DNA from: Straminergon stramineum
Taxonomy: Eukaryota > Streptophyta > Bryopsida > Hypnales > Calliergonaceae
Length of the DNA: 64,000 nt
Direction of reading: 5' to 3'
Assembly (NCBI GenBank): GCA_963920665.1
Contig: OY987273.1
Coordinates: forward strand, 14,510,501-14,574,500
The notes beneath the pieces are model-generated. The model made no database searches and had not been told where the DNA came from. It saw only the letters and a list, made by a program, of their open reading frames with translations. The position numbers were made by a program, and so were the translations under genes. Below, one piece after another: positions 4,478-57,812 of the stretch. The first letter of the stretch is position 1; each line of letters opens with the position of its first letter.

Positions 4478-6123
4478 TTTACCTATACCTATCCATAAGA
4501 ATAATGTGGTATCGAGTTATACATGAATGCTCTCAAATGAAATGTACAGTCTAAGGTATTCAACTTGACTATAATAGGTCAAGTCAACCTAAATAGGAAA
4601 CATTGAAAAGTACATAAAAAGGTCTAGAAACGAAAGTCTCCAAGTTATATTCAGATCTCTTAAGCCAGACAAATCGATAAATCTGGTTAGATCGACTCGA
4701 CCTAATATGTACAATGTCAAAATTGAGACCCAGATAATAAAAGCAGTAGATCATCTGAAATTTTAAAAAGTATTTAAAAACCATATTCATTAATAACATG
4801 ATTGACGAATTTGTGATTGATCTGGAATGTGTCAATTTAAAAATGTTTTTGTTCATTGGTTGCAAGCGACGGGAAATTTAGGTTGGCTCAACCTAAAAGC
4901 GCACACTTAGTTTCGCAGGACTCCATCTTCTATGGACATTAAGATTCTCGTTCTTTGCAATTACCAAAAATTCAATGACATCAATTAAATCGATAAAGCA
5001 GGTTAGGTTGACTCGACCTAATCTGTACAATGTCAGAATCAATACCCAGAGAATAAAAACAGTAGATCATTGCAAATTTTTAAAATAATTTGAACACAAT
5101 ATTCATGAATAACATGATTGACACATTTGTGATTTATTCGGAATGTTTCCATTTAAAAATAGTTTTGTTCTTCGGTTGCAAGCGATGGAATATTTAGGTC
5201 AGCTCAACCTAAAAGTGCACACTCAATTTCTGAGGACTCCGTCTTCGATGGACATTAAGATTCTCGTTCTTCGCAATTACCAAAACTTTAATGACATCAA
5301 TTAAATTGATAAAGAAGGTTAGGTCGACTCGACCTAATCTGCACAACGTTCAAATGGAGATCTGAATAATAAATTGAAAATACCATATTTGTCAACTCCA
5401 AGTGATTTTATAGTTAAAGTAGCAATTTTTGTCTTCGTCCATTTCAGGTTGACTTGACCTAAACTGTATACATGAATTGAACTATTCTAATGTGGTCATT
5501 TAGATCGACTCAACCTAAAGATCTCAAAATATCTGGAATACTTAGTATTACTTCATTCTATCCAAGTGTCCGCATTTTTCAGCGGTTTAATCGGGGCTAT
5601 GGAAAACGAAGCTACTCACTCAAGTTTCAAATCCAAAAATTGCAACAATGATACAGAAATTCCAGCAGTTGTCGATTCAATGCAAAACAACATCGACATA
5701 CAATACAATGAAACAACAAACAAACAATTCATTGTGACAGATTACTCACTTCAAGAAATGAGAACTTGGAATCAATTGACTAAAAATCCCAATACAGACT
5801 ACAAAAGTGTCCACAAAACCTTACTCAAAACGTTGAGCTCTACCTTCCCACAGCTGTTTACACCTATTATCCACGGGGAATGTTGCAAGCAACCTTTAGA
5901 AAATGGAACCAAATTGAATTGAAAGGAACAAACAGTACGCAAAGGAGCAAACAGAAATAAAAAATGAGTGAAAGAATGCCCTAACCCAGACATCCATGGA
6001 GGTGGACGACTTCTTGGCGGGAAAAAAGAAGCAACAAGTGAAGAAATGAAGTTCAAATTCTTCAACGACTAGCTGTCAATATCGCTTGTTTACTAAAAAA
6101 ATCCACTGGATCGTTCACTTTTT
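4478..6123 (-). promoter_or_regulatory. 5' leader and first intron of the element A transposase-like gene
   Basis: Non-coding stretch upstream of the start codon, holding a cluster of family-2 palindromes (see 4565-5525). In element B the matching coding exon begins just after a good 3' splice site (TGTGCAG at about 57807), so this stretch is probably intron plus a non-coding first exon near 5560-6095. A 118-codon plus-strand ORF at 5566-5922 overlaps it but shows no recognisable domain. Confidence 0.45.
4565..5525. repeat. Cluster of family-2 palindromes (TTAGGTCGACTCGACCTAA)
   Basis: About ten degenerate to near-perfect copies, near 4580, 4690, 4890, 5010, 5200, 5325, 5450 and 5510, all in the 5' intron/leader of the transposase-like gene. 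The segment also contains two diverged copies of a roughly 300-bp unit (around 4620-4930 and 4980-5290), each with palindromes at the same relative positions, so the palindromes were amplified partly by local duplication. Confidence 0.8.
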
Positions 6124-6131
6124 TATTTATA
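6124..6131 (-). promoter_or_regulatory. TATA box, element A transposase-like gene
   Basis: TATAAATA on the minus strand. It lies at a plausible distance upstream of the putative non-coding first exon, giving an expected start of transcription near 6095. No expression evidence. Confidence 0.4.
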
Positions 6132-6139
6132 AAAAGGCA

Positions 6140-9100
6140 TGGATAGCTATTTTCTATTTAAAAATGTATCACCTTCTTCCCGGTCAACAGTGTTCTAGAG
6201 ATTTATTTTCTATTTCGGAGAAAGTCCTGTTCGTTTTATGAGTTCCACGAAGTCCCTCTCATTAATATGATGAGTGGGACCTTCTCATTACTTTAGGCAA
6301 CAATATTTTATGATATACTCAATGCTAATTTTAAGGCAGCATGGACTGCACATGGTACTTAAAGTAGAGGAGTCTATTATGAATTTTTGTCATTACCCAA
6401 GGAAAAAAACATTTTTGTCTCATGTACATATTCCATTCTTCTCTTTATTACAATAGGAACTCCAAATCTTTTTTAAACTAGAAATATGTTGGGACCACAA
6501 CTCCATGGAATCCAACGCTACTTTTTCACTATTATGTACCTTTTACAGTTTGAGTTTGAGTTTTTTTAGTAAGAATTATAGATATAGTTCAAGGGTTTAG
6601 GGGACCCGGGAGGGTGGGAGGGACATCTTCACAACGAGGCTTTTCCTAACAATTCCATACAAACATTATCTGACAAGTAAAGAGCGATCCAAAGTAGTTA
6701 AGGTAAGAGCTTAGTGTACTACCAATATTTACTCAAATCATTGCTTATAAAGTATATACCTATGTCAAAGAATTTTGCCATAAAAACTAGATAGGCAAGA
6801 TTTAAGAAGCCCAAATATGAAACTAATTCTACTCAATTTCTAATGACTAATCCTCACAATTGGTGAACTCCAATATCATGTATAATCAAGAACATGATTA
6901 ATAGTAACCCCAAATAATTGGTCTCCAGAGTCTTGGAAAAAGCCTTAGTGGTAGAATATTGAAGGAAGCTGTGGACCTCACCTGTCCCCATAAAAAACAC
7001 CACACAAACATGTAGTATTAGTCGTAGACAAGGTGTCTTAAGTCACACAGCAGCTTGTTATCACTGTTCACCATCAATATAAAACCAATCATGGCTTCAA
7101 AACAAATACACAAGACCATCTAACAAAGTCAATTTAGAGTATGGAAAACAGAAAAGAAAAAGAAAAGGAACCTGTGTAGTAGTGATAATTCCTAGAATAT
7201 CCGTCAAAAAAAGCACTTGAAAGGCCTGTGAGCAATTGTTAGCACTCTGCACAGATGCAGGATATTTGACAATACAAGTTTATATAAGCCTGCCTTAAGT
7301 TGCTGAGTTGGCTATAATTATGTGGTCAAGCTCAGAAAGGGAATGAGTTGGTAGTACTAAATCAATATGGTAATTGCATGCCAAGTACTAGTTTACAGTA
7401 GCTACATTAAATTTCAGCAGTTATATGGTACCCCATTACCTGAGTATTATATCCATGGTAATGGGCTACCTATGCTTCACTAAGGTGTACTAAATTAATC
7501 CAAATTATTCCTACTAATCCAAATTAAGGTAAGTATTGGCCATGGTATTTTTACAAATGTAAAGCTTAACTGACATATCCTCAAGCTTGTTTTAACAGTT
7601 GGGCTTAATGGGAGGCCAGGTGGGAAAAAATACACATTAACTAGAGTATTCATATCCCATTTCTTAATATTATTAAGTACTCAAGAAATAAAAAGTACTT
7701 GAATAATATTTTATTAATAAATATCATTAGTATCCAATAATTCAGTAAAAGGTACTAAAATAATACATAAAGCAAAATTCCTTCATGGATCAAAATGCCT
7801 TTACTAAAAATGGAAAAAATAATAGTTTCCCAATCTTTTTTCCACAATCCATTTTATATCTATATCCTCCATTATTTACTAAAGTTACATAAACTTTAAG
7901 TAAACATGATTCATTACAAAAAGGAGGATTTAGGATTTAGGGTTTAGGTTTCGTGGATTTTTAGGTCATGAATGGATTTTTTTTGAGAACGATTGAGGGT
8001 GTGCTTAGAGGTTACTTCATACCTATATTAAATTTGTATAGGGTTTGCAAAAAGTTTATATCTCTAGCCTCATTCTTTTTATTCAAAAGATTCATGTTTT
8101 AATTCTTAGGACTAATGATTTGAACGCTACTTTTGGAAAGGTATACTACAAATAAATAAATTCATGAGTCATTAATTTTGGAAATAGTCTAAACATGTAC
8201 TTTTTTGTCTTATAACTCTTGAGTCGAATTCTATGACTTGGACAATGAGATTTTGTTTTAGTGTAGTGAAGGCCTCTTGATGAAAATTTGAAAACTAAAT
8301 ACGCAAATTCAAAATGATCCTCATTCCTAACATTGAAAAAATTTAGAACCTGAAAAAAAATAGTAGTGCCTTCTCTTTGGAATTTGTTTTGTTTGTAATA
8401 TGAAGTATTCGAATTTGTATCTTAAGGTGATCATAGAATAGTAACACGTACAAGTTTGTGAAACATAAAGAGTACTTTACAGAGTTTTAGAACAAGTTAA
8501 GAGCTATATTCATGTTTCCAAAATATATTATGAAGATTCCTAAGAACTGAAAGATGACCACACATACACTCTTATCATAGAGACTATACTTATAGGAACC
8601 ATATAGTTTTTGCAAACAGATATTAGATAAGAATTTTTTTATGAATTACTAATAATTAAATCACAAATGAAGTGAATATTTTAAAGCTATTTGAAAATCT
8701 GGTACATATTCAAAAGTTATTTCATGAAAGGCAAATGAACATGAAATTCATGTGCTCAACAATTGTAGGTAGTTGTATTCTCTTATGCCAATTAAAAAAA
8801 GAGTTGGAAGCAATTAAGCAAAAACTGTTTACATATTGGGACATCCATATTCTAGATTTTTTAATTTATGTCCATTGGTGTAAACTTTTCACTCTTCGTA
8901 TTGTTTAACTATGCACAATGCAAAATGGTGGAAAAAATAGAATGTAAGTACTATTTATAATTAACACAAACAACTTATAGAAATGTATAATTTCAAGTAG
9001 AAAGTGTGAAAGAAAATGACCCAAGAGGTTAAAAATATTGATAGTATCTAAAGGTCCTTCAAAGTTGAAGATTGTAGATGCTACTCTTTCTTTAAATTAT

Positions 9101-9963
9101 ATTGTGAGACAAATGACTTAGGCATCTTCTTTACTAAAAGAAAAAATGTTTTAAAGGACAAGACATAGAATTCTTAGGAAAATCTATAGAAAATATGAAA
9201 TCTACATTTTCAAAATATAGGAATTTCTACAAAGTCATAGGAACATTGATGTTGTAGTATATATGTTTAAAAATTACAATAGAATCATAAATAAAGATGA
9301 AGTACAAGCATAGGCACTTAAAAAAATGTAGCCTGTATATTGAAAAGTTTTTTAGGGACTAGACATTCATACACACATTCAAATAATGAAGTTCAATTGT
9401 AAGTTCAAAATACTAGAATGAGTAAACAATGCTGTAATATTTGCAGTGTAGGTACAATAATTTGAAATGGAGCAAAGTAAATAACAAAAAAATTGTGTGA
9501 ACGAATTCTGCTGAACATTAAGTTATTTCACATTTTTATAATGCTAAATAATTAAATAATATCATGAATTGAGATGCACATACAAGATTAGGCTTCAAAA
9601 CATTCCAAAATTAGTACAATTTGGAAATGCTTGCTTACATACAACAAAACTAGAATTTGTATAATTCACTAACACCTTCTTCTTCATACATTCAAACATA
9701 TAAGTGGTTGCATGAGTAACATGTGAATCATGTTTTTAGAAGCACTATGGCTTTATATTATTGTTTGTTATTGCAAATATGTTAGCAAGACTAGATTCTA
9801 TATTTACAAAACAATTGTATGTACATATAGAAGGTTACATATGTCTAAGATAACATGAAATGAATCATTGCAATACACTATTGCATTCATTCCATTAAAA
9901 TCCAATCATTCATGGCTTTAGGTGCCACATATGTAGTTATAATGATTTATTGGAAGGACCCTT
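6140..9963. other. Gene-free AT-rich spacer of element A, left part
   Basis: No gene or convincing exon in about 3.8 kb. Short ORFs (6274-6456, 8672-8908) show no motif. Family-2 palindromes are absent. A telomere-like tract occurs at 7927-7951. The spacer is interrupted by element C at 9964 and resumes at 31049. It lies between the divergent transposase and ParB-like promoters, as does the spacer of B (51430-55900). Confidence 0.55.
7927..7951 (+). repeat. Interstitial telomere-like repeat
   Basis: GGATTTAGGATTTAGGGTT-type tract, two to three units of the plant TTTAGGG repeat, in the element A spacer. Similar tracts occur in the equivalent spacers of C (17448-17512, 20010-20028) and B (55611-55665). 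Confidence 0.6.
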
Positions 9964-9990
9964 TATGCCATATTTAACTACTTTTGGACT
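9964..9990 (+). repeat. Element C left terminal inverted repeat
   Basis: Starts TATGCCATAT and ends CTACTTTTGGACT. It matches the right end at 26 of 27 positions in reverse complement. Immediately inside, GGACT-type short repeats occur at both ends. Confidence 0.8.
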
Positions 9991-11133
9991 ATTGAAAGTC
10001 CAAAATTAAGAAAATGCATAAATCTCTTGATGCATGGTGTGAGGCATTACAATGGGAGATTTCCAAATACTGTGAAGTTAATTTTTGTAAGCGTGTTGCA
10101 TGGCTCTTGATAGGTCAATTGAAGCACATGAATGTGCATCTCAGGATATTCATTAATTGTGAATGATGAAGTGAATAGGGCTCACATGGATTCATGTTAG
10201 GCAATACATCGGGAGATATCCAGATACACAAAAGTTTAGGTTTCCTTGAGGATGGTGCTAGGCCCCATAAGCACACGAACATACATGTCAGGGAAGATTG
10301 AAACTCTGAATGATGAAGTAATTGCTACCACTTGGAATGGAGGTGGGGAGTAAGTTACTTGGAAATCTCCTGATGGAGTGCAAGCCTTGTAAGGCTAGCA
10401 TGATCATTTTGTATACCAGAACATTTTGGTCTTATGCATCTTATGCCCTCCTAAAGTATTCTGGGCATGAACAATGAATGTAAAAACTTGACCTTATTTG
10501 ATATTAACAAAGTGTTTGAAACGTAAACATTTGAAAGCAGAGAGGTAGAAGATTCCAAAGAATGACAAGACCAAGTCATTTGAAATGGAATAGAAGGAAT
10601 GAAAATGAATATTGGAAATAGTAACTTATAGTGCAAGAAAGAAGGAAATTGTCTTGCAACATTTTAATAATCGCTTAAGAGATTGAGTACAAGGAAATAT
10701 TGAAAAGCAAAGCCAATGGAGCGCTAGCACCTACTATGACTAAGAAATGGGATTTGGAGGTTGCCCTGAAGGAATAAAAACAAGAACACATTCCGATCTT
10801 CATGAATAAAGTGAAGGCATCCCATACGCCACAAAAGATTTCACAAGAACCAGTGGTCCCTAAACCTTGAAAGACAAGAAACCATATGTGGACACGTAGG
10901 CTCCCACTTTCGCACTAGTCAGAAGGAAATATCGGGAGATCTCCCGATGGCCCTGCTAGTACCATGTCGAGCAAAACGAAGCATCGGGAGATCAACTGAT
11001 AGCTGTGCCACTATTTGGTTAAAAAAAACAAAGCATCGGGAGATCTCCCAAAAGCCCTGCCACAGTTAGGATAGATAAAGAAGTGAATTGGGAGGTCTCC
11101 TAATAGCCATAAAGATCAAGACACAATAGTCGA
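9991..11133. other. Subterminal non-coding region of element C
   Basis: No gene recognised; the ORF at 10451-10636 has no motif. Family-1 palindromes, some degenerate, occur near 10210, 10370, 10944, 10990, 11043 and 11093, becoming denser towards the 3' end of the transposase-like gene. Confidence 0.6.
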
Positions 11134-13071
11134 TCAAGGGTCCACCTCGTTTGCCCTATTCAAATTCGCAAGGGCAGCTTCTCTACTTTTCCTAGGAATA
11201 GTCCGTGATTTTGGGTTAACTTTCTTGGACCAAGTCACGTATACTACAAAAGATGCATCCACCCAAGTGGGAGGTATATTCTCAACAACCCACTTCCCGT
11301 ACCAACAATTTTGGTACCTCAATTTCATCGTACTTTTAGAATTATCCGGTCTCCAATATTGGAGCAGGAACTTCTTGTTGTTGACATGGCCTTCCTCTCT
11401 GCAAACCTCGCACAGTGCTCTTCCTTGCCAGATAGTACAAATTGAAGGGTCTTTGGGTCGGAGCAGAACCCATGAACCTAGACAAATATCAACCCAAGGA
11501 TTGAAGCTTTCCCTTGGCGCCTCATTTGCAGGTCCGCAATAAGGTTCCAATTCCTCTTCCTCTAGAATGATGTCGACAAGATTAACTATCGGCTCCTAGG
11601 ATGATGATTTTTGCACCCTCCAATCGTACTTTGGCTAGAAGCCTTCAACCAATACCATAGGACAGTCCGGAAGTGGCTCCTTCACCTCTCGCAACACACG
11701 CTTCCAATACTTGACGTATGGAGAAAAGGTGGTTGCAAATCCCTTGCATTTGGACATTCCATCTTCCCAGAAGTCAATGTACTTCTCAAGTCCTAACATA
11801 ATCAAACCCTTGTTCAAGGTTGCTTTCCGTGCCGCTACCACCGCCTTTTCTTGATTTCTGGATGTTGAGGGAACTTCACTACCCCACATGGCTTGAATAG
11901 AATAGGTTTAAGGCAACTCGGAGGTAGCTTAGACTGACCACTTCAATCTTTCTTCCATAGGCATCGCGAAGGTCCATCAGATGGTAGCCATTGTGAATCA
12001 ATTGCTAACTTCTTATACTTCATCACAAGGACTCCATGACAATCCACATAGAACCGGAAGAGGTGCATCTCCCCTAAACCAATCAGTTTAGCAGTGCCGC
12101 TGCATAGGTAACCCTTGACAAACGACTTGAAATCCGCCACCTCTTGGATGAATTCCGGCATAAATGATAGTTCTTGGGACTTCATGAAGGCTTTCATAAG
12201 GTCCGCAACAACAAATGTATTCTTGCTCTTCAAAGCCTTGGATAGATGGCTAAAATATGCATCAATGTCCTTATGAGTATGTCCTACTAGTAGAAAACCC
12301 ACTTGAATTTCCTGGAATACTCCTCTTGCAATAAGCAAGGACAAGAACGCCATGAGATACTGGTTCTTGTTATCTTTAGCGGAGTTGTCAAGCTGAAGAT
12401 AGAGCTTCTTAGGAAGAGGGCAAGCTCCACATCAAGCATCCTCTGGAATCAATTTCAAGGCGTCCATACACCTAGATTTCCCTCTAAGTAATGCCTCGAA
12501 CAATGTATTCGCAAGCGGATAGGGGAAGAGGTTGCTAGTCTTCCAAATCGGTGGAACTTCAAGTCGATGAAACAACTTAGCCAACGATGAGACAGTGTAG
12601 TTCGAGTCGCCTGGCCAGCACGTTGGTCCATAATGGGCATATGCATCGTCAACATGACCATGAGCAACCATACCAGTTATACTCATAGGAAGCTGACCCA
12701 AACCTTGTGTGGCCTTTGCTGTCACCCACATTCTTGGAAGAGCCATCTTCCTTGTATCCATTTTGTTGTAAATGATGCACAGTATCTCCTCAGGGTTCTT
12801 CTTAGATTCTTCATGCCATGTGGCATACAATCAATGGCAGGATGCTTGATGATTCAGATGTTCACTTCGCTGCTTCATGAACTCCACAAAGTCCAAGCTT
12901 CTTTTCGGTGATTTTAGAATGAATTGCTGTAGTTCATTGCACTTCATACACTTGGCAAAAGAGATGCCTACAAGCTTAATGGAAACGTTATTGAAGTGCT
13001 CCTTCTTTATTCTACTAGTTGTGGACTGGCTGACTATACGAAGGCCAGACTCCACATTCAACTGCAAGTAG

Positions 13072-13914
13072 AAAACCAGAACTACACATTAGATGCAGTA
13101 AGGGTATGGAATTCGAAAAGACCATAAACAACAATCACAATAGCAATAGTGTCAACAAATGATTTCGCAAAACAACAATCTAGAGAACTTTGGATGGGAT
13201 AGAAATAAAATCAAGTCCATTGGGAGACATGTATCAGGAGATCTCCCGATGAGGTAAAAATGAAAGAAGTCCATTGGGAGACATGTATTGGGAGATCTCC
13301 CGATGAGGTAGGAATGAAAAGAAGTCCATTGGGAGACATGTATTGGGAGATCTCCCGATGAGGTAGGAATGAAAAGAAATCCATTGGGAGACACGTATTG
13401 GGAGATCTCCCGATGAGGTAGGAATGAAAAGAAATCCATTGGGAGACACGTATTGGGAGATCTCCCGATGAGGTAGGAATGAAAAGAAATCCATTGGGAG
13501 ACACGTATTGGGAGATCTCCCGATGAGGTAAAAATGAAAAGAAACCCATCGGGAAACATGTCTCGGGAGATCTCCCGATGAGGTAGCAAGAAAAAGAAAA
13601 GTCCATGGGGGAGACATGTATCGGGAGATCTCCCAATGAGGTAGGAATGAAAAGAAGTGCATGGGGAGACATGTATTGGGAGATCTCCTGATGAGGTAGC
13701 AATGAAAAGAAGTGTATGGGGAGACATGTATTAGGAGATCTCCCAATGAGGTAGCAATGAAAAGAAGTGCATGGGGAGACATATATCGGGAGATCTCCCA
13801 ATAAGGGCGGACTAAGCTGAAGTCTGTAAAGAGAAATGTATGGGAAGATGTCCTGATGCACTACACTCCGAAAGAAACACATAATAATTCTATCCAATCA
13901 TATTAAAGGTTCAC
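13072..13914 (-). other. Intron of the element C transposase-like gene
   Basis: On the minus strand the upstream exon ends ...AATGAG|GTATTTTGG at 13914, and the downstream exon begins after CTACTTGCAG at 13072. Codon phase is preserved across the junction (phase 0). Almost the whole intron is filled by the palindromic minisatellite. Confidence 0.65.
13211..13870. repeat. 55-bp minisatellite built on the family-1 palindrome
   Basis: Eleven clear units and one degenerate unit, each containing GGGAGATCTCCC. The AGATCT centres fall at 13239, 13293, 13348, 13403, 13458, 13513, 13568, 13626, 13681, 13736 and 13791, so the period is 54-58 bp, usually 55. The linker reads roughly GAGGTAGGAATGAAAAGAAG followed by TCCATTGGGAGACA and CGTATT. 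Units in the middle are nearly identical, which indicates recent tandem amplification. Long minus-strand ORFs across it are repeat artefacts. Confidence 0.9.
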
Positions 13915-15349
13915 CAAAATACCTCATTAGCGTCAGCATGAACGCGCTTCCAACTGTTTCTTGCAGGGAGGAACTTCAATGTGTCCACTCTCCCATTCCC
14001 TATGGACCGCATTTGGTGCAGCATTTGGTCAGCAGTGCTGTTGATGATGGCTTTCATTGTACTAGTGACCTGCATTGTTCGAAGTTGAGGATGCTTGATC
14101 CCTTTGTTCCCGTGGGTCGAGGAAACCACACCTTGCTTGTACAAATCCATGTAATTGTGGTAGGTGGACTTCAGTACTCTGTGAATAATGTACCATGTAG
14201 TGGCACAAACTTCTGATCCTTTTAAAGTAATATATTTCCACTTTCACGTCCAATCCATACTATGCAATTGCTTGCCAACAACGATTCCATACTCTTGACG
14301 CTCTTCAAAAGACTTCGAAAAATATCTCTATCTGACCATCAACGATTTCACCTAGGGAAAAAATTGGCAGCAATGATTGTCATAGCATTTCTTTGAACTG
14401 ACCTTCCGAATTTCATCGTTGCTAGTTTTACGTGTGAACTGTGTCTCCATATGACAAAGGGAGGGTCGACGAACCATAAATCAATACAACACCTTCTCTC
14501 TTCCATCCAAATAGGCAAGGGGATCCAATACATCAGGAAAGGCACGGAAGTGCTCCACCATGTCCTTCAAATTTCGACCATTAGGGAACCAACACTCTGA
14601 AATTGGCCAACGAGTGTGGGTCATGATTACATCATGATCACCTACAAAAATGTCAAGGACGGTTACACCTAAGTGCCCCTCACCAAAGATAGTACTTTGG
14701 AAACTATCGTTTGGCCTCCAACAGTTTATTCGTCCGGATGACAGTAACACACCCACCATATCATTTTGATGGACCTCCAGCCCAGTCCATTCCTCCTGTC
14801 GAATAAATGGACTCGAATCAAAATAGGGATCTTCAATACATTTAACAATGTCCGCGGCACTCCACAGTACCGTCCGGTTCAGGACATCTAAGAGCGTTGT
14901 AAAACCCCTTTGGCAAGGTGCGACCCTAAAATATTGAGCTTCAATGACAAAGGATGACAGGCGTATGAGAACAAATACCCACGGCTCAAATGGAATAGGA
15001 ACTCCAAGCCACTCGCCCTGAGGTCTTGCCTCCACTATAGACACTACTCCGACTTCACCAAATCCTCAATAATAAAGCTTAACCACGTCCCCTACATTCA
15101 TTGGCGAAGTTCAGGTACAAGACTCCTGTGACTCGCCCTCGTCGGCACCATCGCCAATATATGGCATAATTGCATAATCCATCAACTCTGAGACAGAATC
15201 CATCGATTCTGCCCCACTATTGATACAAACCATATCTCGTGTAGGTTCTGAATCTCTATATCTGCAAAATAAAGGACCCAACGTTGAAGTTAGCAAAAGT
15301 CAATTCCAAATGACACTGTCTACAAAATGTTAGGATCAGTCACTACAAA

Positions 15350-32520: not shown

Positions 32521-32569
32521 TTTTTTTTTAAATGTTAAGGCAATCGAATTTTAGTATTGAATGTAGGTA

Positions 32570-46087: not shown

Positions 46088-46312
46088 CTACGGCGAATCT
46101 AAATTAACAAGTCCGTTATATGAAGCGTACCTAATGTGATTAGGTCGAACCCACCTAAAAACACTATTTCAATCGAGCTTACGTGTATTCAAGTTATCAC
46201 CCTACCTACTTAGGTCGACTCGACCTAACTGAGCAAACTCAGATAAATGAATACTGAACGACTAAACATTGTGTCGCAGTTGCTACTTCAGGTCGATTCG
46301 ACCTAGAAGGGA
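46088..46312 (-). other. Palindrome-bearing intron of the element B multi-domain gene
   Basis: Splice sites ACGATG|GTGAGT (46312) and CGCCGTAG| (46088) are good, and codon phase is kept. Three family-2 palindromes lie at about 46150, 46215 and 46295. Confidence 0.7.
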
Positions 46313-47661
46313 CTCACCATCGTTGCACAAGTGAACTTTGTGCCACCAAACAGTGACATCACACTTCTCCCTCCCATAGCAAACCTATCCAGGATATGAA
46401 GATAGAATTCCATTCTTAGCTCTATGTTGTGAATTCTATATTGCAGCTCATTGTACGCCTTGGGCTTCTTGAATACGTCGGTATCTGGAGCGCGATATGC
46501 TGGCTTTGGGATGCGGATGATAGCATTGTCCGGACTCTGCAAGAACGTGAGATAAACTTTCTCCATGGCCTTGCTGTTGCTCGCGGAGTAGTCACCCATC
46601 CACTCATGCTTTGCGGGCCAATAATCTGCGTACGCCATCTTGTAATCCTTTAGATCCTCGTTGGTCTGCACAAAATGCAGAGCCTGCGTCTACTCGACAA
46701 GATCTGAGCAAATGAAGAGCCAAGTCATGACCTCTTCCAATAATGGTTTCTTCATCTCTTGGAAGGACTTCATTGCTGCATAGAAGTAAGGCATCACCGG
46801 CATGCACTTGTCCTTGTTCAAGACTACAGGAGCATATTGGAAATCAATAATTCCGAATTTGATATCAGCCGCACTGTTTTCCTTCCACACTCCTGCTGGC
46901 CAATCAGAGTGTATGTCAGAACTGATGTTGTATGGCCTATAGTGTGCAGCGACGAGAGGCTTCACAAAGTTCGTTCGAGGAAGACCCTGAAGAATTCGGC
47001 AGCATATGGAGATATATCCTCTGCTTTTTTGTTCTTGGCCTTGGTTTGCTTAGCCTCCTTCCAGTAATCATCTCCAGGCTGCTCAAGGAGAACATTCATG
47101 GTAGCACTCGTGATGTAATGACTTTTCTTGAAGTCCCTCCACTTCTCGATGTTAAATTCGTTGAACACATTGAGCAGACCCAAATTTGGGGCCAGGTTGT
47201 GAAGCTCTTTCTTCACGAGATATTTTCATTTTTGCTGCTCCACCCACTCTTTGCAAGTACAGAAACTCTCAAGCACTGATGACACCTGCTTTATCGTCAC
47301 CTTTGGATACTTCTGCGTCCTCTTCCCTGTGTCCTGATGTAGAATGTGCTTTGCGAGCTTTGCCATGTTGTCGTAAGAAAGGTTTCCTAACTACTTGAAG
47401 AATTCGTATATTAGGTTCCCAGATTCCGACTTCCACCTAGCCTTCTTATTGAAGGCCATTAGAGTGTCTGGGTCAATGAGCTCCCCATGTGCATTACTTG
47501 ATATAACCTCACTCCAAAGTGAAAAGATTGAATCGGGAGCGGTGATGATCTTCAATTTGTTGGTGATCTTCAACTTCTCTTCAGCATCCATCCCCCTTGA
47601 AGCCTTTTGGGACTTCACAACATCAAGCATTGCAAACTTGGCATTCATTGCTTTCACAAAC
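46313..47661 (-). pseudogene. Helical and methyltransferase-like module, element B
   Basis: From 47661 the frame runs through helical, Lys-rich sequence (EEKLKITNKLKI, NYITSA-like segment HYITSATMNVLLEQ), breaks at TAG 47391 and TGA near 47220, shifts by one base near 46965 (ERT|VKPLVAAHYRPYN), passes one TAG at 46690 and ends at the splice site 46312. Two segments suggest a beta-class amino-methyltransferase: DIKFGIIDFQYAP, in the place of the catalytic (D/N)PP(Y/W) motif, and SVMSLFGGTKFTCA, in the place of motif I (FxGxGTT-like), in the order catalytic motif then motif I. The PP of the catalytic motif is missing, so activity is doubtful. ParB-like domains fused to methyltransferases are known in phages and bacteria. 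Confidence 0.5.
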
Positions 47662-47866
47662 TCTTGAGACACACAATTAGATGCTCAGTTTGTATCAGCT
47701 CTTGCTTAGGAAGATTCAACCTAACAAAGCCCAAAGAAAAACTATAGAGTATGATTATTTCATCCTTCTACCTTTAGGTCGACTCGACCTAACAAAGCCC
47801 AAAGAAAAACTACAAAGTACCACCATTTCATTCTTTCACCTTTAGGTCGACTCGACCTAATTTGTT
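47662..47866 (-). other. Palindrome-bearing intron of the element B multi-domain gene
   Basis: 5' site TTCAAG|GTAACA (about 47866). Two near-perfect family-2 palindromes (47774, 47841) lie in a 67-bp duplication with the shared segment ACAAAGCCCAAAGAAAAAC. A third, degenerate palindrome lies near 47700. Confidence 0.7.
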
Positions 47867-49293
47867 ACCTTGAATTTCAAAACATTGGCCTTGTTCTCTG
47901 CGTTGCATCGAGCATTTGATAGGGTACCGGCTGGTGAGGGTTCTTTCAAGTTCCGCGGTCTCCCCATCGTTACCCAGACTGATCTCGTGCCTAAAATATT
48001 GGTAGACCATGAGGGCTTCATGGCGACAAAGTGCTTTACCCTGTTGTAGTACGCAGAGATGGAGCGCAATTTGCCATTGTCTTTTGACCATACCACGTAG
48101 TAGTCCCATTCCCTAAAATGTTTCACAATGGACTCATCCAGCTTCTGTTCTACCATCATCTTACTGGCCAATACACTATGTTGTCCATTTATAAGATAAA
48201 ACTTCCCTCCTTTAATTTTATCCCATGACTCGGGTGTGGGCTTCTCTATTTGATCAACAGGCATGACACAGAGTGTTTGTTTAGTAGACTTGTCTGGCAT
48301 ATGCACATAATAATGCATGAGGTCGGCCGCAAGTCTATTTTCGTGACTCCTGATGTTCATGTCCGATGGAGTTGGAATCATCTGATCAATGGAGATTGAC
48401 TTTTTTTGGTCAATTTCGAACACATACGCATCTGTACATGTTGCCCAGTAGTTCTTATAAGCCTCAGCTGATAGTTTGTAGTCGTGAATTCGCTGTGGGT
48501 CGTGCGCTTCAGGAATGTCAATGACTACTAACACGAAACTAGCCTCCTCATAGTTCTTTTCTCTTGGATTCTGAACAAAAGAAGAAGCTAGTTTACTTCT
48601 TACTGGTGCAGGCGGAGAAGATCTCGTATTTATATTTCTCCGAGTTCCCTGACTACTTTGGGTTCCAGGTGTACCCATTGAAGCTTGACCCTCACCTTCA
48701 GTCGCGGGAATTTCTTGAGAAACAGATCGCGCAGACATATCCCTCTTCTTCGATTCCAACTTTGCTTTCAGAACCTCGAAGGTCACAAAGAGTGTTCGCA
48801 GCTGATTGCATAAGGTTTTCCCTATGAATAGCTTTCCGGCAGCATTGTGGAAGAAGTTATTGTCAATCTTCCTCTCCATCTCCGAAATCTATGATCAATA
48901 CTCCATAGGTTCAAGAGTCACAATAAATGGTGTTATATTCAATGGAATCTTGGCAGAGTCCAGAACAATTGTGAAGTGAAATTGTTGTTCTTTTGGAATC
49001 CTCATTTGCGCTGTCACACAATGAATTTTGAACATAGACCCCTTGTCATGGGCAATATCCTTGATCTTCTCATCAAATGAGACAGAGTAGAAGGTTTCAC
49101 TGTCTATGTATTTATAGGAGAAGTAGATGAGATTCTTGAATGGAATCATCCGCTAACTCCACTCTCCAACTTTCTCTGGGTTCTGGAATTCCCAGTATTC
49201 TCCATCATTATCGATGTCATCTCCGTCCTCTTCTTCGCGAGCGATCTCACATCTTTTGAAGAACGCCTCAAGTCTTGGAATCTATTCTTCCAT
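47867..49293 (-). pseudogene. ParB-like N-terminal module of the element B multi-domain gene
   Basis: Starts at 49293, just after CATATTTCAG. The N-terminal domain (49293-48895) has TAG at codon 4 (Gln in A), TAG near 49156 and TGA and TAG near 48885-48895. The following 340 codons (48879-47867) are open. They contain a Ser/Gln/Arg linker, then the segments EAHDPQRIHDYKLSAEAY and NRLAADLMHYYVHMPDKS, and the ParB/sulfiredoxin-like motif KFYLINGQHSVLASKMM (near 48190), followed by WDYYVVWSKDNGKLRSISAY, which fits the strand-helix after the motif. ParB-like proteins bind palindromic parS-type DNA or act as nucleases. The palindromes in this gene's introns make a self-recognition role attractive, but that is inference. 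Confidence 0.65.
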
Positions 49294-50522
49294 TCTGAAA
49301 TATGCTAAACACTGTCACTGCCAATTCAAGGATTAGGTCGACTCAATCTAAATCGAGTTTAGACTTTTTCTTTTTGCAAGGTATTTTTATTAGAGTTATT
49401 ATGAACTTCTTGGTCTCTTCTCTCATGACATGTGTCCTATTCTTTCAATAGGATTTAGGTCAAGTCGACCTATTCTGTCTTTTTAAACTTTTTGGTTTTC
49501 ATTGTGACACTTATAGCAGACCATTTCTGTGGATGTCAATTTCTCATTGAACGTGGATTTAGGTTTAGGTGACTTTATTCGAGTGATGCTCGAAGCTCGA
49601 GAATGTGTTGGGAGACCTCTTTTGCTGTTTAGGTCGACTTGACCTGAACTAAAAGGTAGCATATTTGATTTATGGGTATTTTAGATTCATTGATCATGGG
49701 GTTCTTCATTTGTATGAAGAAATTTAAGCTTATAGCTCGACTCGACCTAAATGGGCATGGTTGAGAACTATTTATCTGTTGTTCTATGATGTGCTGAGTA
49801 GGACTGACCTCGAGCGAGGCCGATATCGACCTAAACCGACATTGACCTAAATTGCTTCCTCTCCCAATTAGTGGTTTAAATCTATGTTTGTTAGGACAGG
49901 AATCACAGAAATCCAAAAATCTTTAAGGAAAATGTAGCATTTGGTTATGGAACTCACCTTCACAAATAGATGCAAGATTTCTTCTGTCGATTCACCTTTG
50001 AATTCTGTCACAATTTCAGTGGAAGGTTAGCAAATTCTAACATTGGGAATGTAGCAGAACTGCAATTCCAAAATTACTCTTTTGATGATAGAGCACACAA
50101 TGAAAAATCAGAATTCCACTATCTTGTGAAAACAAAATAGCAATGCACCCAATCTCGAAATCACACAATTACACAATTCACCCTATGCACAGAATCATGC
50201 AATGCACACAATGACCAAACAAATCAAAAAATCAAAAAATCACACAATGACAAATTGAAATAATGCACGCTATGCAAAGAAATGAAAGAGTAGAGCAAAA
50301 TAATATCCAAAAATCCAACAATGGACAGAAAGAGAAGCACAATCAGACCTGAAACCCTAAAATGAAGAGCACTACCAATTCCATTTCATAATCCAACAAA
50401 GACGACAAAATTATACAAGACATCTGCACTTCAGCTAAAAGATAGATTCAAACAAGTATGCGATGCACTCATACAACACATACCAACCCAAAAGCACGAT
50501 AGAAAACCAAAAATACATACCT
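49294..50522 (-). other. Intron 1 of the element B multi-domain gene, palindrome-rich
   Basis: From the 5' site CTGAAGAACAG|GTATGT (about 50522) to TTTCAG near 49295. Family-2 palindromes at about 49335, 49460, 49635, 49745 and 49830. The half towards 50522 is palindrome-free and rich in CACACAATG-type short repeats (50090-50260). The ORF at 49629-49916 is not a gene. Confidence 0.6.
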
Positions 50523-51000
50523 GTTCTTCAGCGACTGTTTGGGCACCGACAGCAAGCACTGAAAACCCAAAGCGCAGGCACCCAAAACCGAAAGCCAAAA
50601 ACCACTAATCGGCGGAGGAATACCGACCTCCTCGTCCAACATCGAGCTTCTCCTACAGCAGTGGCTGCAACTCCAAGAAAACAGCGACCTCCTCCATAAA
50701 GACACGGCGATCAACTCCACTGATCAGGAACCCTCAACACGTCAAATGATTCCAAAATCTGGAAATTCCTTAGTTTCTCGCAACACCTCCTCCAACTCTC
50801 AAACAGCACGCACCCAAAACCCAAAGCGCAGGTAACCAACACAGACTTCAAGGACCCTACAGCAGCTAACCAGAAGCGAAAGAATAGGGGGGTCTGCAAG
50901 CAAGATAGACAACAATCGGAGGAGTGACGACGCATCAAGCTATAAACCCTAAACGCCCAAAAGTAACTCAAACTAAACTCCCGCAGTACTTGCCGTAGCA
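50523..51000 (-). promoter_or_regulatory. 5' leader exon of the element B multi-domain gene
   Basis: GC-rich stretch ending at a strong 5' splice site (ACAG|GTATGT). It contains CGCTTTGGGTTTT-type segments twice (about 50560 and 50820) and AAACCCTAAACG near 50943 (telo-box-like). Short ORFs here have no motif. It is counterpart to 32791-33370 in A by position. Confidence 0.45.
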
Positions 51001-51165
51001 TTTCCGATACCCGCCCAATACCCAGCCAATACCCGCCAAAGGATACCCTACGGTATCCAGGAAGTGATACCCGCCTGGTACCTACGAACTGATACCCGTC
51101 CAATAACCGCCAAATGATACCCGCCGAGTAACTGCGAAGTGATACCTGCCCATTATCCGCTAGGG
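51001..51165 (-). repeat. GGCGGGTATC repeats upstream of the element B multi-domain gene
   Basis: About ten irregular copies of GATACCCGCC or variants on the plus strand (GGCGGGTATC on the gene strand), 15-25 bp apart. The same type of repeat occurs at the same place in element A (32570-32790), on the same strand relative to the gene, so it is a conserved promoter-proximal feature. Confidence 0.7.
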
Positions 51166-51229
51166 CTTTGGGGGGGGTTAGGGGTGCTTGATAGCATGAG
51201 AAAAAATAATTTGTTTAACCCCTAAACCA

Positions 51230-51430
51230 CTGAATGGATGTTTATTGTCTGATGAATGACAAGGAATTTTCCTCTATAGGACAAAATTGCCACTATTCAT
51301 CCTCAGAATTAGGGTAGGAAGGGAATATCTTGTAGAGTAGTTGGACTCTCACTGAGTATTTTTGATTTTTTTTCAAGTGGATGATGTCACATGGTTCCAA
51401 AATGGTTGATTTCCATAATTACTAAGTCGG
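51230..51430 (+). repeat. Dispersed repeat shared with element A
   Basis: Counterpart of 32330-32520 (CTATTCATCC, GATGATGTCACATGGTTCC, GGTTGATTTC). Orientation relative to the downstream ParB-like gene is opposite to that in A. Confidence 0.65.
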
Positions 51431-54400
51431 CGTTCAAAGGGTAAAGAATGCCCACTAAAATGTCCCTAAATTTGGATAAAATCGCCAAAAAACATTAAAC
51501 TACAAAAAATCGTAAATGACATTGCATTTATGTATGAAAACCATATTATACAACCAATTTGTTAATGAATGTTATGATTGGGAGCACAATTATAACATTT
51601 CATATGGCCACTCGGTAAAAATTGGAAAAAAACAACTAATACCCGTTTGGGACCTGCCGGTTTCCTTTCTTCATTATACCCTATTGACATTACAAGCCAA
51701 AACATGATTGTTAGTCATACCGTAAATTGTACTCTGTCCATCATACCCACTCGATACCTAGTAAAATTTGCCTATTTACAAATATAGATGATAATATGAT
51801 GCACTTGACAAGTATGCATATGTAAAAGCTAGTAGGATTGATTGAATAATGTAGAAATCATTTATTTCTATATCAATTGAATAATTTTTTAAATTAGTAA
51901 ATCCCCCCCAAAATTTATTCACAAGACTTCTAAAGAGGTCCTCCCCTTTTTGATAAAGATTTGCAAACCCTAATACATTGAATTGTTTCTACTGACAACG
52001 ACGAATGTCTTCTGGTTTTAAAGAAGATGACAAATTCAAAGCGCAAAACGTATAATCCTCACATTCAATTCTTAATCTATCATGAATAGAACCTCAGCAA
52101 AGATGGGCGCATTAGGTATAATAAGGGACATTTTACAACCATAAAGTTTTATTTCCAATATTAATGGTGAGTAGAAATGAGGAAAGTGCTTCAGATTATA
52201 TAAATATACACCATTTCATAGGGTTATTAAAGGTTTATTGGGGTTCATCAGCAAAGGAAGCTGGTTCAAGCGGTTTAGAATTTTTTGTATAGACCCAAAT
52301 AATAGCAACAAACTGTGTTTCATAATGAAGTTGGAGTCATTTAGGAAAATAGTGTAAAGAAAATCAATATCGTAGGTTTTATTTATAAAAGTAAAATTTA
52401 TGATTTATAATTTTTGCTAAATTCATTTGCATTTATGTATGTATTCAATTTATTTATGCTTATGTTAAACCACATAGAATTTGTCAAACTATGTCTTGGA
52501 TTGGTTTCTTCTTTTTTAGAAAGGCAAGCTTTTAAATCAAGTGTTGTGTTCCATCTACTCTAAATAACTACAATCATAATTGTTGGGCAATACACATTAA
52601 AATGAGACCCGAAAAAGAAGATATAAGTTCAAAATGCCACCCAAATTTGGAAGTTATGATTTTGAGTATTATGAACTCATGAGCACATATAAAAACATTA
52701 AATTTTCTAGTATTATAATGAGGTCTAATAATTAATCCATGATGTTATTGAATACATGAAATCAATATATTTTCTTCATTCCAGACGATGTGTACAAAAA
52801 TTTAGGGTGCATGAAATTGTAGTGCGGGTCCTACAAGATTGGGATATCCAATCACAATTTGGCGTACATGTGAAATACTTAATCCTGATTGTATTTAAAG
52901 TGACAAGTTCTATCAACCCTAAACACATAATTTTAGGGAAGTGTATGCAAATAAATGAACGAAGAAGTTGTGGGTTCATTTTATTCCCCAAACTTTACGT
53001 GAGAACAATGATCTATTTTGACTTAGACTGCATTTTTTGGAACTTCATACAACAGCCCTGCCGTTGGTTGAAATACAGCTATGAAATTAATATGCAGACC
53101 TTCATTTCATCCCAAGTTTTGAATTCGTGTATTTCCACCAATTGTTAACTACATCTGTGATTTTTTTATATTTAAAATCATAGAATACAGTAACTACATT
53201 AAATATTTTCTTGAGCTTGATTCATTAGATTTTTTAAACTCATTATATGAAATGTAATGTGATTTATTTTTCTTTAGTTCTACACAATACATGGATTGCA
53301 CTATTTTATTTTTTAGAAGCATTACCCTAAACTCTAAAGTATCTCTTTCACAACAGAAATGTAGCCATGAATTTCATATCCGAAGTTGTTGGGTAATTTT
53401 ATTACAGCATTGGAATTAAACATGTATGGTTTATTTATTTGCATTCAGTTCTATAAAATCCATTCATATTATTATCTTACTTTTGAAAGGGTGATTTAGT
53501 AGTTGCAGCGAAGCTCTTATATGGTTGTTGTAAATGCAATCATGAATTTCATATGATTCCTAAAGATTATTCGAAGTTGTTGAATCATTTAATTCCACAT
53601 AAATAATTATGCAACATCAATGATTTGTATAACTTGAAAAACTGCGTTTTTGTCCAAGTAGATTTCTTGTCTTTAAGGTACAGGACAAGAAAATGTGTGT
53701 CCTAGATTCTATTGAAGGAAACAATGTCTTCTACTAGTGTGTGCACCCCTATTCTATGACTTTACATGAATTGGATTCTTTATTAATGTACAACAAACAC
53801 TATATTTTACTTTTCATAAATGCTTAAAATTAGGTGGAACCTTGAGTAAGGTTCCATATGGCACGAATTTGAAGTATTAAAATTATATAGAACCTATTGG
53901 CTGATTTCTCTCATTTATTTTAATACCAATTCTATTACTTACCCTATTTGGGGGTTAGTCCCTATTTTGGGTTCATTAAAGTACATCCACTATCGGTTTG
54001 GATTTTTGATCTCTGATTCAAATTAATGAAATGCTTCCATGGATTTCATGTTGACATGAATTACAATTTATAAAAATAAAACAACTTCTTCGTGTTCACG
54101 TTCATTTTTTTAGATACCAATTCATTGACTCCACATGAAATGGGTTAATCATTACATTTCTCAAAACACTACAGACTATTAGAGATTATATAGTTACCAC
54201 AATAGAACACATGAATATCATTTATAGATTGAAAAATTATAATGTTTGGAAACCCTACATATTAGAATATTACAAGTGCTTTGAAGACTCTTAACATCTC
54301 TCTACACATGTCATAACTACGAACAACTTCATGTTGCTCGTGTTTAATGAATGTTGACCATTAAATACAACAATACATTTTCTAAAGTGGTTCAAGGTAT

Positions 54401-55900
54401 AAGAAGGTAGATTTTGAAGCCTTAATTATGTGTCTCCATAGAATCCCTACATGCAAAGCTTCTACAATTTTTTCTAGAATTACTTACATCTAAAAAAAAG
54501 GAAAAATATTGTATTTTAGAGACCCAAACTTTCTAAACGTATACAATAGCTTTCTAGAAGCATGAGACAAAATAGCCATGAAGTTGCTAATTGCAAATTT
54601 CATCCATTTCTTCTAATTTTAGCTTGTCCAAACAAGGTAGTTTATATTTCAAAATGCTTTCAATGTCTCATCAAATCTTAATGTAAAACTTAATGCCACA
54701 TATAATACCAATGAATGCATGCTTTGAATCATAACTACCCTTCAAAGTATTTCTATCATTGCCCCATTACTTCCACACATGCTTCCAAATGCTTGAATGA
54801 TTGACTTAGAGGACTCCATATATGAAAACATGAGTAATATCATTTTATTGTTATAGCACAATAATGATACATAAGTAGTCACGAATTACAAGTACAAACT
54901 CTCGAGAATGATAGAATTGAAAAGATACATGTACATATAAAAAGAAAAAAAGGGACTTCACTTTAAGAAACATTGACAATGAATTCTCAAATTAATAAAG
55001 TGCATGAAGACAAAAAAAGGATCCAAAATATGTATAATTTCGAAATACTTTCCACACCTACAATTCAAAATAGTTTCAAATTAATCTTGCTCTTCTTTAG
55101 TTAAAATGATGAAAAAAATAATAAAAAGACTAAGAATTCAATTTATCCATCTAGTAAAACTAATTCCCCATTGACATTGTAAAAATGAAAGTGGATATGG
55201 GAATAATGTGTGTACAAAGTAGAAATAGTTACCATAATGCCAAATTTGAAATAGACATGTTCCACATCAAAAACGAAACCGAAAGAAATGAATATCATTT
55301 GTCAATAAAAAGACTATAATGCTTTATCATGTGGTTGTTAAAACTCGAGATGTGACTTCATGTCTTCTAGTCCACTTTTGGCATGCAATATTCAAAATCT
55401 TGGTCACAAAAGATATGAGGTTGTATGGTCTAACAAATATGACCCCAATGAATTTATGACTCGGTAAAACTTAGTCTACAATTTTCTAAAATAAATTTCC
55501 AATGTGTATTTTCTAAGACATCTAGTCTATTTGAAGCTCCTTTGAAAGAGACTTGAACACGTTGGAAGTAAACATTGCAATGGGTATCCTAAATCCTCAA
55601 TTTGTAAATTGAAAACCCTAAACCCTAAACCCTTGAAACCCTAAACTCTGAAACCTGAAACCCTATTTAATTCAACGGTATATCAAAATGGCAGGCTACA
55701 TTGTAATGAAAGTGTTGACTTTAAAATACCACAAAATCATTGATATGAAATTGGTAAAGCTATCACCTTTTTTTGGACAATAAATGGGAATGGGAATAAA
55801 AATAACATGCGGATGCCGCAAAATGGAACCCAAGGAAAACTCTCCCAATACAAACCTCTCTCCAAAAGAATTTACTATAGACCTCTAATAACATGCACAA
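51431..55900. other. Gene-free AT-rich spacer of element B
   Basis: No gene recognised in about 4.5 kb. The ORFs at 51516-51707 and 52756-53148 have no motif. No palindromes of either family. A telomere-like tract lies at 55611-55665 near its right edge. Equivalent in position to the spacers of A and C. Confidence 0.55.
55611..55665 (-). repeat. Interstitial telomere-like tract
   Basis: AAACCCTAAACCCTAAACCC followed by degenerate units; a short array of the plant repeat on the minus strand. Confidence 0.75.
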
Positions 55901-57812
55901 CCTAAACAAGGCGGTGGAGAGCAACATTTATTTCTTCCTCTGGGTAGGAACCATGACCTTTCCCCAGATCACTGTACTTTGTATGCACCACTGACCATTT
56001 CCCCTTTACAAAAAAAGGTTGTGTCCAAAATGTGAGTGGCGTAATTCCAGAAGCCACCTACCTATCTTGTTGCCTTCCTAATGAACAGCGACGCATCACA
56101 TGCAAATCCAACTCTGAATCCGGGCTGCCAGGCTGCCATATTCGAATTCAAACGGCAGTAACATAGTTGCTACCATCTCCATTCCCGCCAACAATTAAAC
56201 GACTTCTGCCATCAATTGGTTGCATAGATTCTTTTTTCATGTTCTGTGAAGTGTGTGGAGAACTCTCAGATGTGCTGCTCCATTCGGTTTCCTTGCGTTA
56301 TGTATTCCCTACGAAATTGTTGCTTTTTGTTTGTCGGAAATTGAAGATAGTTCAGAGCATCAACGACGTTTGGGTTATAGCTCACAGAGGCGCTTTGAGT
56401 ATCGGGTATGTGATGCAGAAATCCTTAGCCATACGGAAGATTTTCATGCGGTTTTAGTTTAGGGTTCAAGCGTTAGCATGTGCAAGTCCTATTCCGATCA
56501 TTTTTTTTTACAAATTCTCGAGTGATAGACAGTGATCATGGCTTTTTCTATAAGAGAAGGACAGATACATAGTGCGCTCCATCGTTTAGATCTTCATATC
56601 ATTTTTGAATTGTATAGGGTGAACATTAGAGAGACCGATTATGTCACCATAAAATCCGCAACAATGCATGTGATGTTCACTTAACTTTGAATTCCTGAAA
56701 TTACGGAGATATTCAACTTGAGTTGACCTTATTTGATTAGCTAGAGAGTGTAATAGTATATACATTAGTTTAGGTTGAGTCGACCTAAACCTCAAAGACA
56801 ATATCTCTCCTAGTAAGTATTGTAAGATGTTGAAGTTGTCTAAATGTTAAGAAGGCAGTTATAGTATTATATAATGAATGTATACATTTCTCAGAAAGAG
56901 ACTAACAATCTGGCAAATACTATAGTTCGACTCGATGTAAATTAGAAGCCTTTAAATGTTTCAGGAACAAGTTTACTATTTTCATATCAACAGTAAAATA
57001 AACGGTTCAAATTATGATATAATTGGAGAAATTTGAATGTCACTACGAAGACATTGGGGATGTGAATATCATTTAGGTCAAGTCGACCTAATGCGAAGGG
57101 ATTACATAGAGTTCAAAGTTCTTCATAGTCCTAAGTTCAATTTAGGTCGACTCGATCTAAATCATGAGATGATCTTGTATTCCAAGACCTCTGTAGATGT
57201 AAAGATGGATCACATCTTCTCAACCTAATATGTAAGATTCCGTGGGGTTGCTGGTCTTCAAAGATATAAATACACGTGAGGTCAACTAGACCTAACACGT
57301 ATGAGTACATATAGTTATGGCATTTAATGAAATCAATATAATTTCTTGCACTTGATTCAGAGATGTTATTTTTATCATAAGCACTGCACCTCCCCTTTTT
57401 ATTCATATTTGGTATCTTTGAATATTTACGATTTCCTATTAATGTATTGTGAAATACTCTCATAGTTGGTCTGGAGTAGATTATATACAACTCTTTGTGT
57501 TTAGGTCGAGTCGACTTAAACAAGTCAATTGAAGATTGATCTATTTGTTAAGCTGAGTCACTGCTCTCTTTCTTCATGGTACACAACTCTATGTCATTTG
57601 AAGAATATTTCAGATCTGTACGATTGCTCTAAAAATCATTATTCTATTTTCTTGAACCACCTTACAGTAATTAGTGCATGTGCAGTTTGTATTGTTCTAC
57701 TCTTTAGGTCGACTCGATCTAATTTGGTCATGTTCAAGTATATTATACTAAACATGCACCTTGAAATCGTTCACGGATAACACAGCACCACATTTTTTCA
57801 TGTGCAGGTACA
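55901..57812 (+). promoter_or_regulatory. 5' leader and first intron of the element B transposase-like gene
   Basis: A GC-richer block (55900-56460) probably holds the promoter and non-coding first exon. The ORF at 56167-56457 has no known domain. From 56700 to 57730 it is intron-like with family-2 palindromes at about 56715, 56775, 56935, 57080, 57150, 57285, 57510 and 57715. It ends in CATGTGCAG just before the start codon exon. Confidence 0.5.
56705..57730. repeat. Cluster of family-2 palindromes, element B transposase intron
   Basis: About eight copies of TTAGGTCGACTCGACCTAA and variants (for example TTTAGGTCAAGTCGACCTAA at 57073), irregularly spaced at 60-220 bp. Counterpart of 4565-5525 in A. 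Confidence 0.85.

Follow-up and report, generated by a model that had tools for sequence, protein, structure and literature searches.

Palindromic words private to clans of DUF7869 transposons in the moss Straminergon stramineum, and a candidate reader encoded by the same elements

The DNA considered here is a stretch of 64,000 nucleotides (the window) from the moss Straminergon stramineum (assembly GCA_963920665.1, contig OY987273.1, positions 14,510,501 to 14,574,500), which holds three DNA transposons, named A, B and C, each with a DUF7869 transposase gene (gene 1) and an oppositely directed accessory gene (gene 2). These elements carry many copies of palindromic words: A and B have one word in common (the AB word), and C, which is nested in A, has another. 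Across the genome each clan of elements has its own word, located upstream of the transposase gene, upstream of gene 2 and within gene 2, and the letters of the word follow the gene-2 tree. It is proposed, with moderate confidence, that the gene-2 protein of each clan would dock on that clan's word as a dimer and maintain the expression of its copies against silencing.

Words and gene-2 clades across the genome

The genome-wide comparison was run in the window's own genome, of 326 Mb. The exon of B gene 2 that encodes the stretch INGQHS has at least 120 matching stretches there (118 of 485 candidates were scored), 14 of them at 69% identity or more, 51 at 57-68% and 55 at 50% or less. Twenty-eight of these matches (8 + 20), picked to span the identity bands, were taken with their upstream DNA. 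A tree of the exon from these 28 loci, together with A, B, one Physcomitrium and one Ceratodon sequence, resolves the clades AB (12 rows, support 100/100), X1 (9 rows, 100/100) and X2 (7 rows, 97/93), besides two single-locus lineages, L064 and L069, the latter with 3 sites only. The degenerate pattern TYAGSTCGNNNCGASCTRA, which finds 0.05 sites per letter-shuffled locus, was used to call sites. In 9 of 30 loci (L046, L048, L052, L057, L060, L061, L065, L067 and L069) a de novo finder recovered no exact palindrome that recurs, and in L070 it recovered an unrelated one; the words of those ten loci come from the degenerate pattern.

The half-site words are TTAGGTCGA in AB, TCAGGTCG in X1, TTAGCTCGA in X2 and TCAGCTCGA in the lone locus L064. 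At positions 2 and 5 of the half-site AB has T and G, X1 has C and G (with position 9 free), X2 has T (some C) and C, and L064 has C and C. Position 5 needs 2 changes on the exon tree with 29 rows, the mean for shuffled labels being 7.9 and none of 5000 shuffles giving as few; position 9 needs 1 change on 29 rows (again 0 of 5000 shuffles), and position 2 needs 3 changes on 28 rows (1 of 5000). L057, with one site, was omitted from the word states, and L048, with a 3:3 division, from position 2. The exception is L065, which has T at position 2 inside the X1 clade.

Related to this, the gene-2 exon of C (25379-25897) has 101 matches in the genome, forming a C-type band at 66-100% identity and a Y band at 35-49%, plus short weak pieces. 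The half-site words on this side are ATCGGGAGA in C and ATCTGGAGA in Y. The full Y word, ATCTGGAGATCTCCAGAT, was found de novo in all three Y loci taken, and it departs from the C word by a single letter in each half-site. Exact copies in the genome number 172 for the AB word TTAGGTCGACTCGACCTAA, 507 for C, 219 for Y, 79 for X1 and 63 for X2, with 0 for each reversed control. Half-sites differ by 1-2 letters within the group of AB, X1, X2 and L064 and by 1 letter within the group of C and Y, whereas 4-7 letters separate the two groups.

The initial annotation had suggested the coevolution of a word and its reader, to be checked by asking whether each clade has its own palindrome. The letters at positions 5, 9 and 2 do follow the gene-2 exon tree, and close relatives with unrelated words, named there as the contrary outcome, were not seen. 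The coevolution idea is thus supported by words that follow gene-2 clades genome-wide, gene 2 as the reader being the inferred part.

The words also lie near gene 2 of their own type. Among the word places listed (100 of 172 for AB, 50 of 79 for X1, 50 of 63 for X2, 50 of 507 for C and 50 of 219 for Y), 23 AB, 16 X1, 14 X2, 11 C and 11 Y words are more than 15 kb from any gene on their own gene-2 list, that of C comprising 83 of the 101 matches, with short weak rows omitted. For the other listed words, the nearest gene 2 within 15 kb is of the same type in 75 of 77 cases for AB, 39 of 39 for C and 39 of 39 for Y, and it is of X type (identity of 50% or less) in 33 of 34 cases for X1 and 36 of 36 for X2; two X2 words are also within 15 kb of a C-type gene. 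Forty-nine genes have listed AB, X1 or X2 words within that distance: 26 have AB words only, 12 X2 only, 9 X1 only, 1 both AB and X1 (an AB-type gene with one X1-form word) and 1 both X1 and X2. When word positions were shifted by 1 Mb, 5 of 100 AB, 0 of 50 X1 and 1 of 50 X2 places fell within 15 kb of a gene on the B list; the same control against the C list gave 0 of 50 for both C and Y, but 7 of 50 for X2.

A clan's word also stands before its transposase gene, about 10 kb from gene 2: one X2 element has 8 sites there and another has 10, the L064 element has 5, each of two X1 elements has 2 and the AB locus L042 has 8; the stretch taken for another AB locus, L076, ended short of the upstream side of its DUF7869 gene and has 3 sites elsewhere.

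Words in the window

The AB word, TTAGGTCGAnTCGACCTAA, occurs cumulatively at 4, 13, 22, 32, 33 and 36 places of the window with 0, 1, 2, 3, 4 and 5 mismatches, and 30 dinucleotide shuffles gave means of 0, 0, 0, 0, 0.07 and 1.8. The 32 places at up to 3 mismatches comprise 14 in A and 18 in B, with none inside C. The C word, ATCGGGAGATCTCCCGAT, has 52 places at up to 4 mismatches, every one in C, and none in the shuffles. The places are the following.

4574..5518, element A: 8 AB words before the DUF7869 gene, some of them within a 316-bp tandem repeat
33946..34523, element A: 5 AB words upstream of gene 2
37318..37336, element A: 1 AB word, with 3 mismatches, 3' of the FCP1/NIF part
43466..45015, element B: 2 AB words (43466 and 44997), with 3 mismatches each, one beyond the 3' end of gene 2 and the other within the gene's 3' part
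46140..46306, element B: 3 AB words within a predicted gene-2 intron
47706..47860, element B: 3 AB words within the predicted intron that follows the ParB-like exon
49333..49750, element B: 4 AB words upstream of gene 2
56770..57722, element B: 6 AB words, and 1 more at 4 mismatches, upstream of the DUF7869 gene
10208..16209, element C: C words in the vicinity of the DUF7869 gene, among them those of a 55-bp tandem array (13213-13806)
22321..29721, element C: C words upstream of gene 2, in its noncoding stretches and 3' of it

About 40 occurrences of the AB palindrome, in introns next to the same genes and all outside C, had initially been described. The palindrome is indeed in A and B, with a count slightly lower than stated (32-33 places above chance), and none of the 33 places at up to 4 mismatches is in C, where the single match, at 21465, has 5 mismatches and is at chance level. 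The intron placement is confirmed for 47706-47860, which separates two coding stretches that run continuously in Physcomitrium relatives, the intron limits being predicted; the other sites are upstream of both genes or 3'. The AB word was not found in IMG/VR contigs.

The tandem array in C holds about ten C words. A separate observation concerns 26997-27938, also in C, where seven word-like sites (one with 5 mismatches) recur at a spacing of 84-87 bp within one long open frame; these C words may be translated.

The candidate reader and its competitors

According to the proposal, dimers of the gene-2 protein would sit on the words in noncoding DNA of the same clan's copies, each subunit reading one half-site. 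By analogy with VANC in the VANDAL elements of Arabidopsis, the bound protein could confer anti-silencing or activation. Tandem duplication would spread changed words, selection would keep the matching reader, and word and reader would change together, so that clans would not activate each other. The reader is likely to be gene 2 rather than the transposase, because the transposase changes slowly while the change of gene 2 runs with that of the word, as in the VANA/VANC pattern: X1, X2 and L064 have different words, yet the identity of their DUF7869 cores is 87-88% for X1 with X2, 89% for X1 with L064 and 83-85% for X2 with L064, and the gene-2 exon is only 45-48% identical between X1 and X2. 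More tentatively, the moss elements could represent a second word-reader system beside VANDAL/VANC, in which a fast-changing protein with ParB-like, dead methyltransferase-like and FCP1-like parts would act on clan-private palindromes and drive its own clan's transcription through silent chromatin.

Several points weigh against this proposal. Gene 2 and the transposase are inherited together, so that the correlation cannot name the reader and the choice of gene 2 is inferred; besides, residues 1-350 of the transposase are less conserved than its core (74-81% among X1, X2 and L064). No Pfam, NCBIfam or PHROGs profile for a ParB or a methyltransferase matches gene 2 over its cut-off, and an AlphaFold model of the gene-2 protein, made from an alignment of 8 moss proteins, has a mean pLDDT (predicted local distance difference test score) of 33, too low to show a DNA-binding domain. 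The preservation of the words speaks for the proposal, with a caveat. Conservation drops within 1-2 bases outside each AB and C word, and in the A/B alignment word columns are 82% identical on the gene-2 side (57 columns), against 47% for other noncoding columns (511) and 65% for the adjoining exon (1116), and 79% identical on the transposase side (38), against 48% (849), in a comparison that is biased since the words were chosen for their match to the consensus. Many word columns (197 and 38) are aligned to non-word DNA, which indicates that the words are maintained more as a collective than at individual positions. Also in favour of the proposal, changes in the words are commonest at CpG, where C>T or G>A at the two CpG positions make up 22 of 61 changes in AB words and 54 of 108 in C words, the C sites including tandem-array copies that are not independent; such a pattern is as expected of DNA formerly cytosine-methylated. 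Against the proposal, symmetric compensation within single sites was not seen, mirrored changes numbering 5 against 4.5 expected and 10 against 11.6 expected.

Three other explanations are considered. The DUF7869 transposase could itself read the word, using internal sites for the assembly of the transposition complex or for the repression of its own promoter, and this is considered rather unlikely. The words do lie ahead of the transposase gene in A, B, C, X1, X2, L064 and L042, and transposases of other families bind subterminal repeats, TnpA of CACTA/En-Spm elements being an example. The moss words resemble those repeats as element-specific words read by an element protein (here a putative one), but they are internal and beside genes; the nearest words to the ends of B are 1.4 kb (43466) and 3.7 kb (57722) inside, and subterminal transposase sites are for this reason disfavoured. 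The high identity of the transposase core between clans with different words also argues against this explanation, yet few residues can change specificity. An autoregulatory circuit, in which gene 2 would repress or tune both divergent promoters and transposition and have no anti-silencing role, is likewise judged improbable. Words before both divergent genes and in gene-2 introns are in keeping with it, and palindromic sites are common among dimeric repressors; nevertheless, the intron and 3' copies and the array in C are more than a repressor needs, and the CpG decay suggests a conflict with methylation. That the words merely result from tandem duplication and shared ancestry and have no reader at all is very improbable. 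Some words are in the tandem repeats of A and C, and related elements share words through descent, but the palindromic pattern has narrow limits, the same word is found before two genes about 10 kb apart, and word columns exceed both noncoding and coding columns in identity, with the bias mentioned above.

The proposal that gene 2 reads the word can be compared with several known systems. In bacterial ParB-parS a palindromic site adjoins a gene whose protein product has a ParB-like motif, as in the moss elements, although the ParB homology of gene 2 is backed by no profile. The closest likeness is to VANDAL21/VANDAL6 and their VANC proteins in Arabidopsis: in the accessible text of PMC5735166 and PMC10398659, family-private motifs lie in introns and upstream of the elements' own genes, are spread by tandem repeats and change between related families. 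VANC21 and VANC6 act in this way through different motifs, in introns and upstream regions, and VANA is more conserved than VANC (PMC5735166, accessible text), so that both systems combine a conserved transposase with a faster-changing accessory gene. A family-private motif repeated in the noncoding regions of the element, which characterises VANDAL-type systems, was found in the moss elements too. However, the VANC motifs described in those texts are short and non-palindromic (YAGTATTAY; AGTTGTCC), whereas the moss words are palindromes of 18-21 bp, and VANDAL elements have a Mutator-like VANA transposase and VANC, a DUF1985 protein that binds its motif and removes cytosine methylation, whereas the moss elements have a DUF7869 transposase and, as candidate reader, an INGQHS/FCP1 protein; Pfam detected DUF7869 and NIF in the scanned stretches and their relatives, and no MULE or DUF1985 domain. 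The Ectocarpus element Sola1-1_Ec32, of 21.5 kb, has a gene for a ParB + N4/N6 methyltransferase protein, and its authors suggest that such accessory proteins may bind and modify their own element (PMC12477816, accessible parts); palindromes are not mentioned in the main text of that paper as far as it was accessible. Both it and the moss elements are giant DNA transposons with the accessory gene on the strand opposite to the transposase, but moss gene 2 has no Pfam ParB or methyltransferase match and no DPPY at its putative motif IV, and has FCP1/NIF fused to it.

Private words with a co-changing reader are already known for VANDAL/VANC. Within the literature searched, and as far as the searches show, what is new is the type of transposon and the likely lineage of the host, together with the palindromic form of the words and the occurrence of a series of six in a single genome, one of which comes from one locus. 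Words evolving together with their readers are known in one plant transposon group; if the proposal is true, the moss elements would be a second, of a different transposon type and probably in an early land-plant lineage. The six words, in two groups within which they are 1-2 letters apart per half-site, and each beside its own version of the reader, would then form a ready-made specificity code, in which single-letter differences between clades make the stepwise origin of binding specificity directly testable. It would also bear on the way in which selfish elements distinguish their own kind from others as they evade silencing.

Elements, genes and side observations

A, B and C have a common plan: an outward-pointing DUF7869 gene at one side, a long middle, and an oppositely directed gene 2 ending in FCP1/NIF.

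1212..38429, no strand: element A, with the transposase side at left, C nested inside and the terminal inverted repeat AACACAATATTCAT at both ends
42092..61437, no strand: element B, 19.3 kb, oriented opposite to A, with the repeat AACACAATATTCAT and GAAG flanks
about 9964..31048, no strand: element C, nested in A, with the outward repeat AGTCCAAAAGTAGTTAmATATGGCAT at both ends
2100..4480, minus strand: A gene 1, DUF7869 transposase, by DNA identity to B
57813..60643, plus strand: B gene 1, DUF7869 transposase (PF25273, E 1.1e-32), with 94 relatives
11137..15065, minus strand: C gene 1, DUF7869 transposase (PF25273, E 5.2e-39 at 11946-12431)
34555..37115, plus strand: A gene 2, with a truncated ParB-like exon (cut after the INGQHS stretch) and the FCP1/NIF part at 36501-37115 (PF03031, 30.9 bits)
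45770..49293, minus strand: B gene 2, main part, with the INGQHS exon at 47860-48888, ParB-like by motif only
43565..44366, minus strand: B gene 2, C-terminal FCP1/NIF part (PF03031, 26.5 bits)
23137..29022, plus strand: C gene 2, with an IIDGHH stretch near 24224 and the FCP1/NIF end at 28702-29022 (PF03031, 27.8 bits)

The FCP1/NIF end is the sole domain of gene 2 confirmed by profile, in A, B, C and the moss relatives alike. It exceeds the Pfam cut-off of 21.8 bits in the three window elements and in the relatives P0003 (50.2 bits) and P0008 (43.4 bits), and it is fused to gene 2 in P0002, P0003, P0004 and P0008, as a single protein of up to 1551 residues. The usual phosphatase motif of FCP1 is DxDG; at its place A (within 36380-37115), B (43565-44366), C (28438-29022) and the moss relatives read LDLNG, so the domain is possibly a dead phosphatase, of doubtful activity. 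INGQHS is present in B and in the moss relatives that cover the stretch. We take it to resemble a ParB box, and the IIDF and FGG.K.T stretches to resemble degenerate methyltransferase motifs, confirmed by no library; such motifs were seen by eye in B at 46306-47049. The best weak library line is DndB (E 0.26), below its cut-off. The putative motif IV reads IIDFQY, IIDLRE, IIDFWF or VIDFRT in B, Physcomitrium, Ceratodon, X1 and X2, without DPPY; if related to ParB-methyltransferases, the moss proteins would have lost DPPY and would read rather than write. Comparison of gene-2 profiles of the AB group and C gave a weak match at INGQHS/IIDGHH (P 0.0012, probability 19), and a second C piece did not match the AB-group profile (P 0.13). 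A profile search toward algal ParB-methyltransferases, with 7997 candidates scored, returned 13 proteins, 8 of Physcomitrium and 5 unnamed, none with such Pfam domains. As a side observation, 66 of the 120 listed gene-2 exon matches are on the window's contig (C11, 5.4% of the genome), and the Ceratodon relatives P0008, P0063 and P0066 have KC19_VG locus names and lie on a 110-Mb contig; C11 is possibly a sex chromosome.

The nearest named relatives of the transposon proteins of the window are from the mosses Physcomitrium patens and Ceratodon purpureus. A putative DDE-type (RNase H-like) fold lies at residues 385-620 in the modelled structure of one DUF7869 relative, P0010. The copies in the window are decayed, with stops and frame shifts, B gene 1 having stops and two frame shifts as read here. 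A second large DUF7869 clade comprises 30 loci (L009-L038) of about 3.6 kb each, at about 25-35% identity to B, several with long open frames; these loci, and L039-L041 extended 5-6 kb upstream, have no AB or C words at up to 3 mismatches and no notable repeated palindrome. The common DUF7869 and FCP1/NIF domains and the gene order suggest that A/B and C are related families.

A and B are both flanked by GAAG on their outer sides (1208-1211, 38430-38433, 42088-42091 and 61438-61441). These flanks could be 4-bp target duplications in both elements or else reflect a target preference, the latter being a possibility since the four letters are identical at A and B; 4-bp target site duplications are stated for Sola2 in the accessible text of PMC3627910. 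The limits of C, read by eye, are approximate, and no clean target duplication was seen by eye at its ends. DNA identity between A and B is 93% over 1212-3505 and 88% over 3534-4596, at the transposase end, and 66-68% on the gene-2 side. The high similarity at the transposase end (1212-4596 and 57700-61437) ends at a word (4574/57704), and recombination between elements is possible. Between A and B, a minus-strand stretch (38950-41100) resembles by eye a retrotransposon gag gene, and short tandem runs of the telomere-like unit AAACCCT lie mid-element at 17426-17502 in C and 55613-55665 in B.

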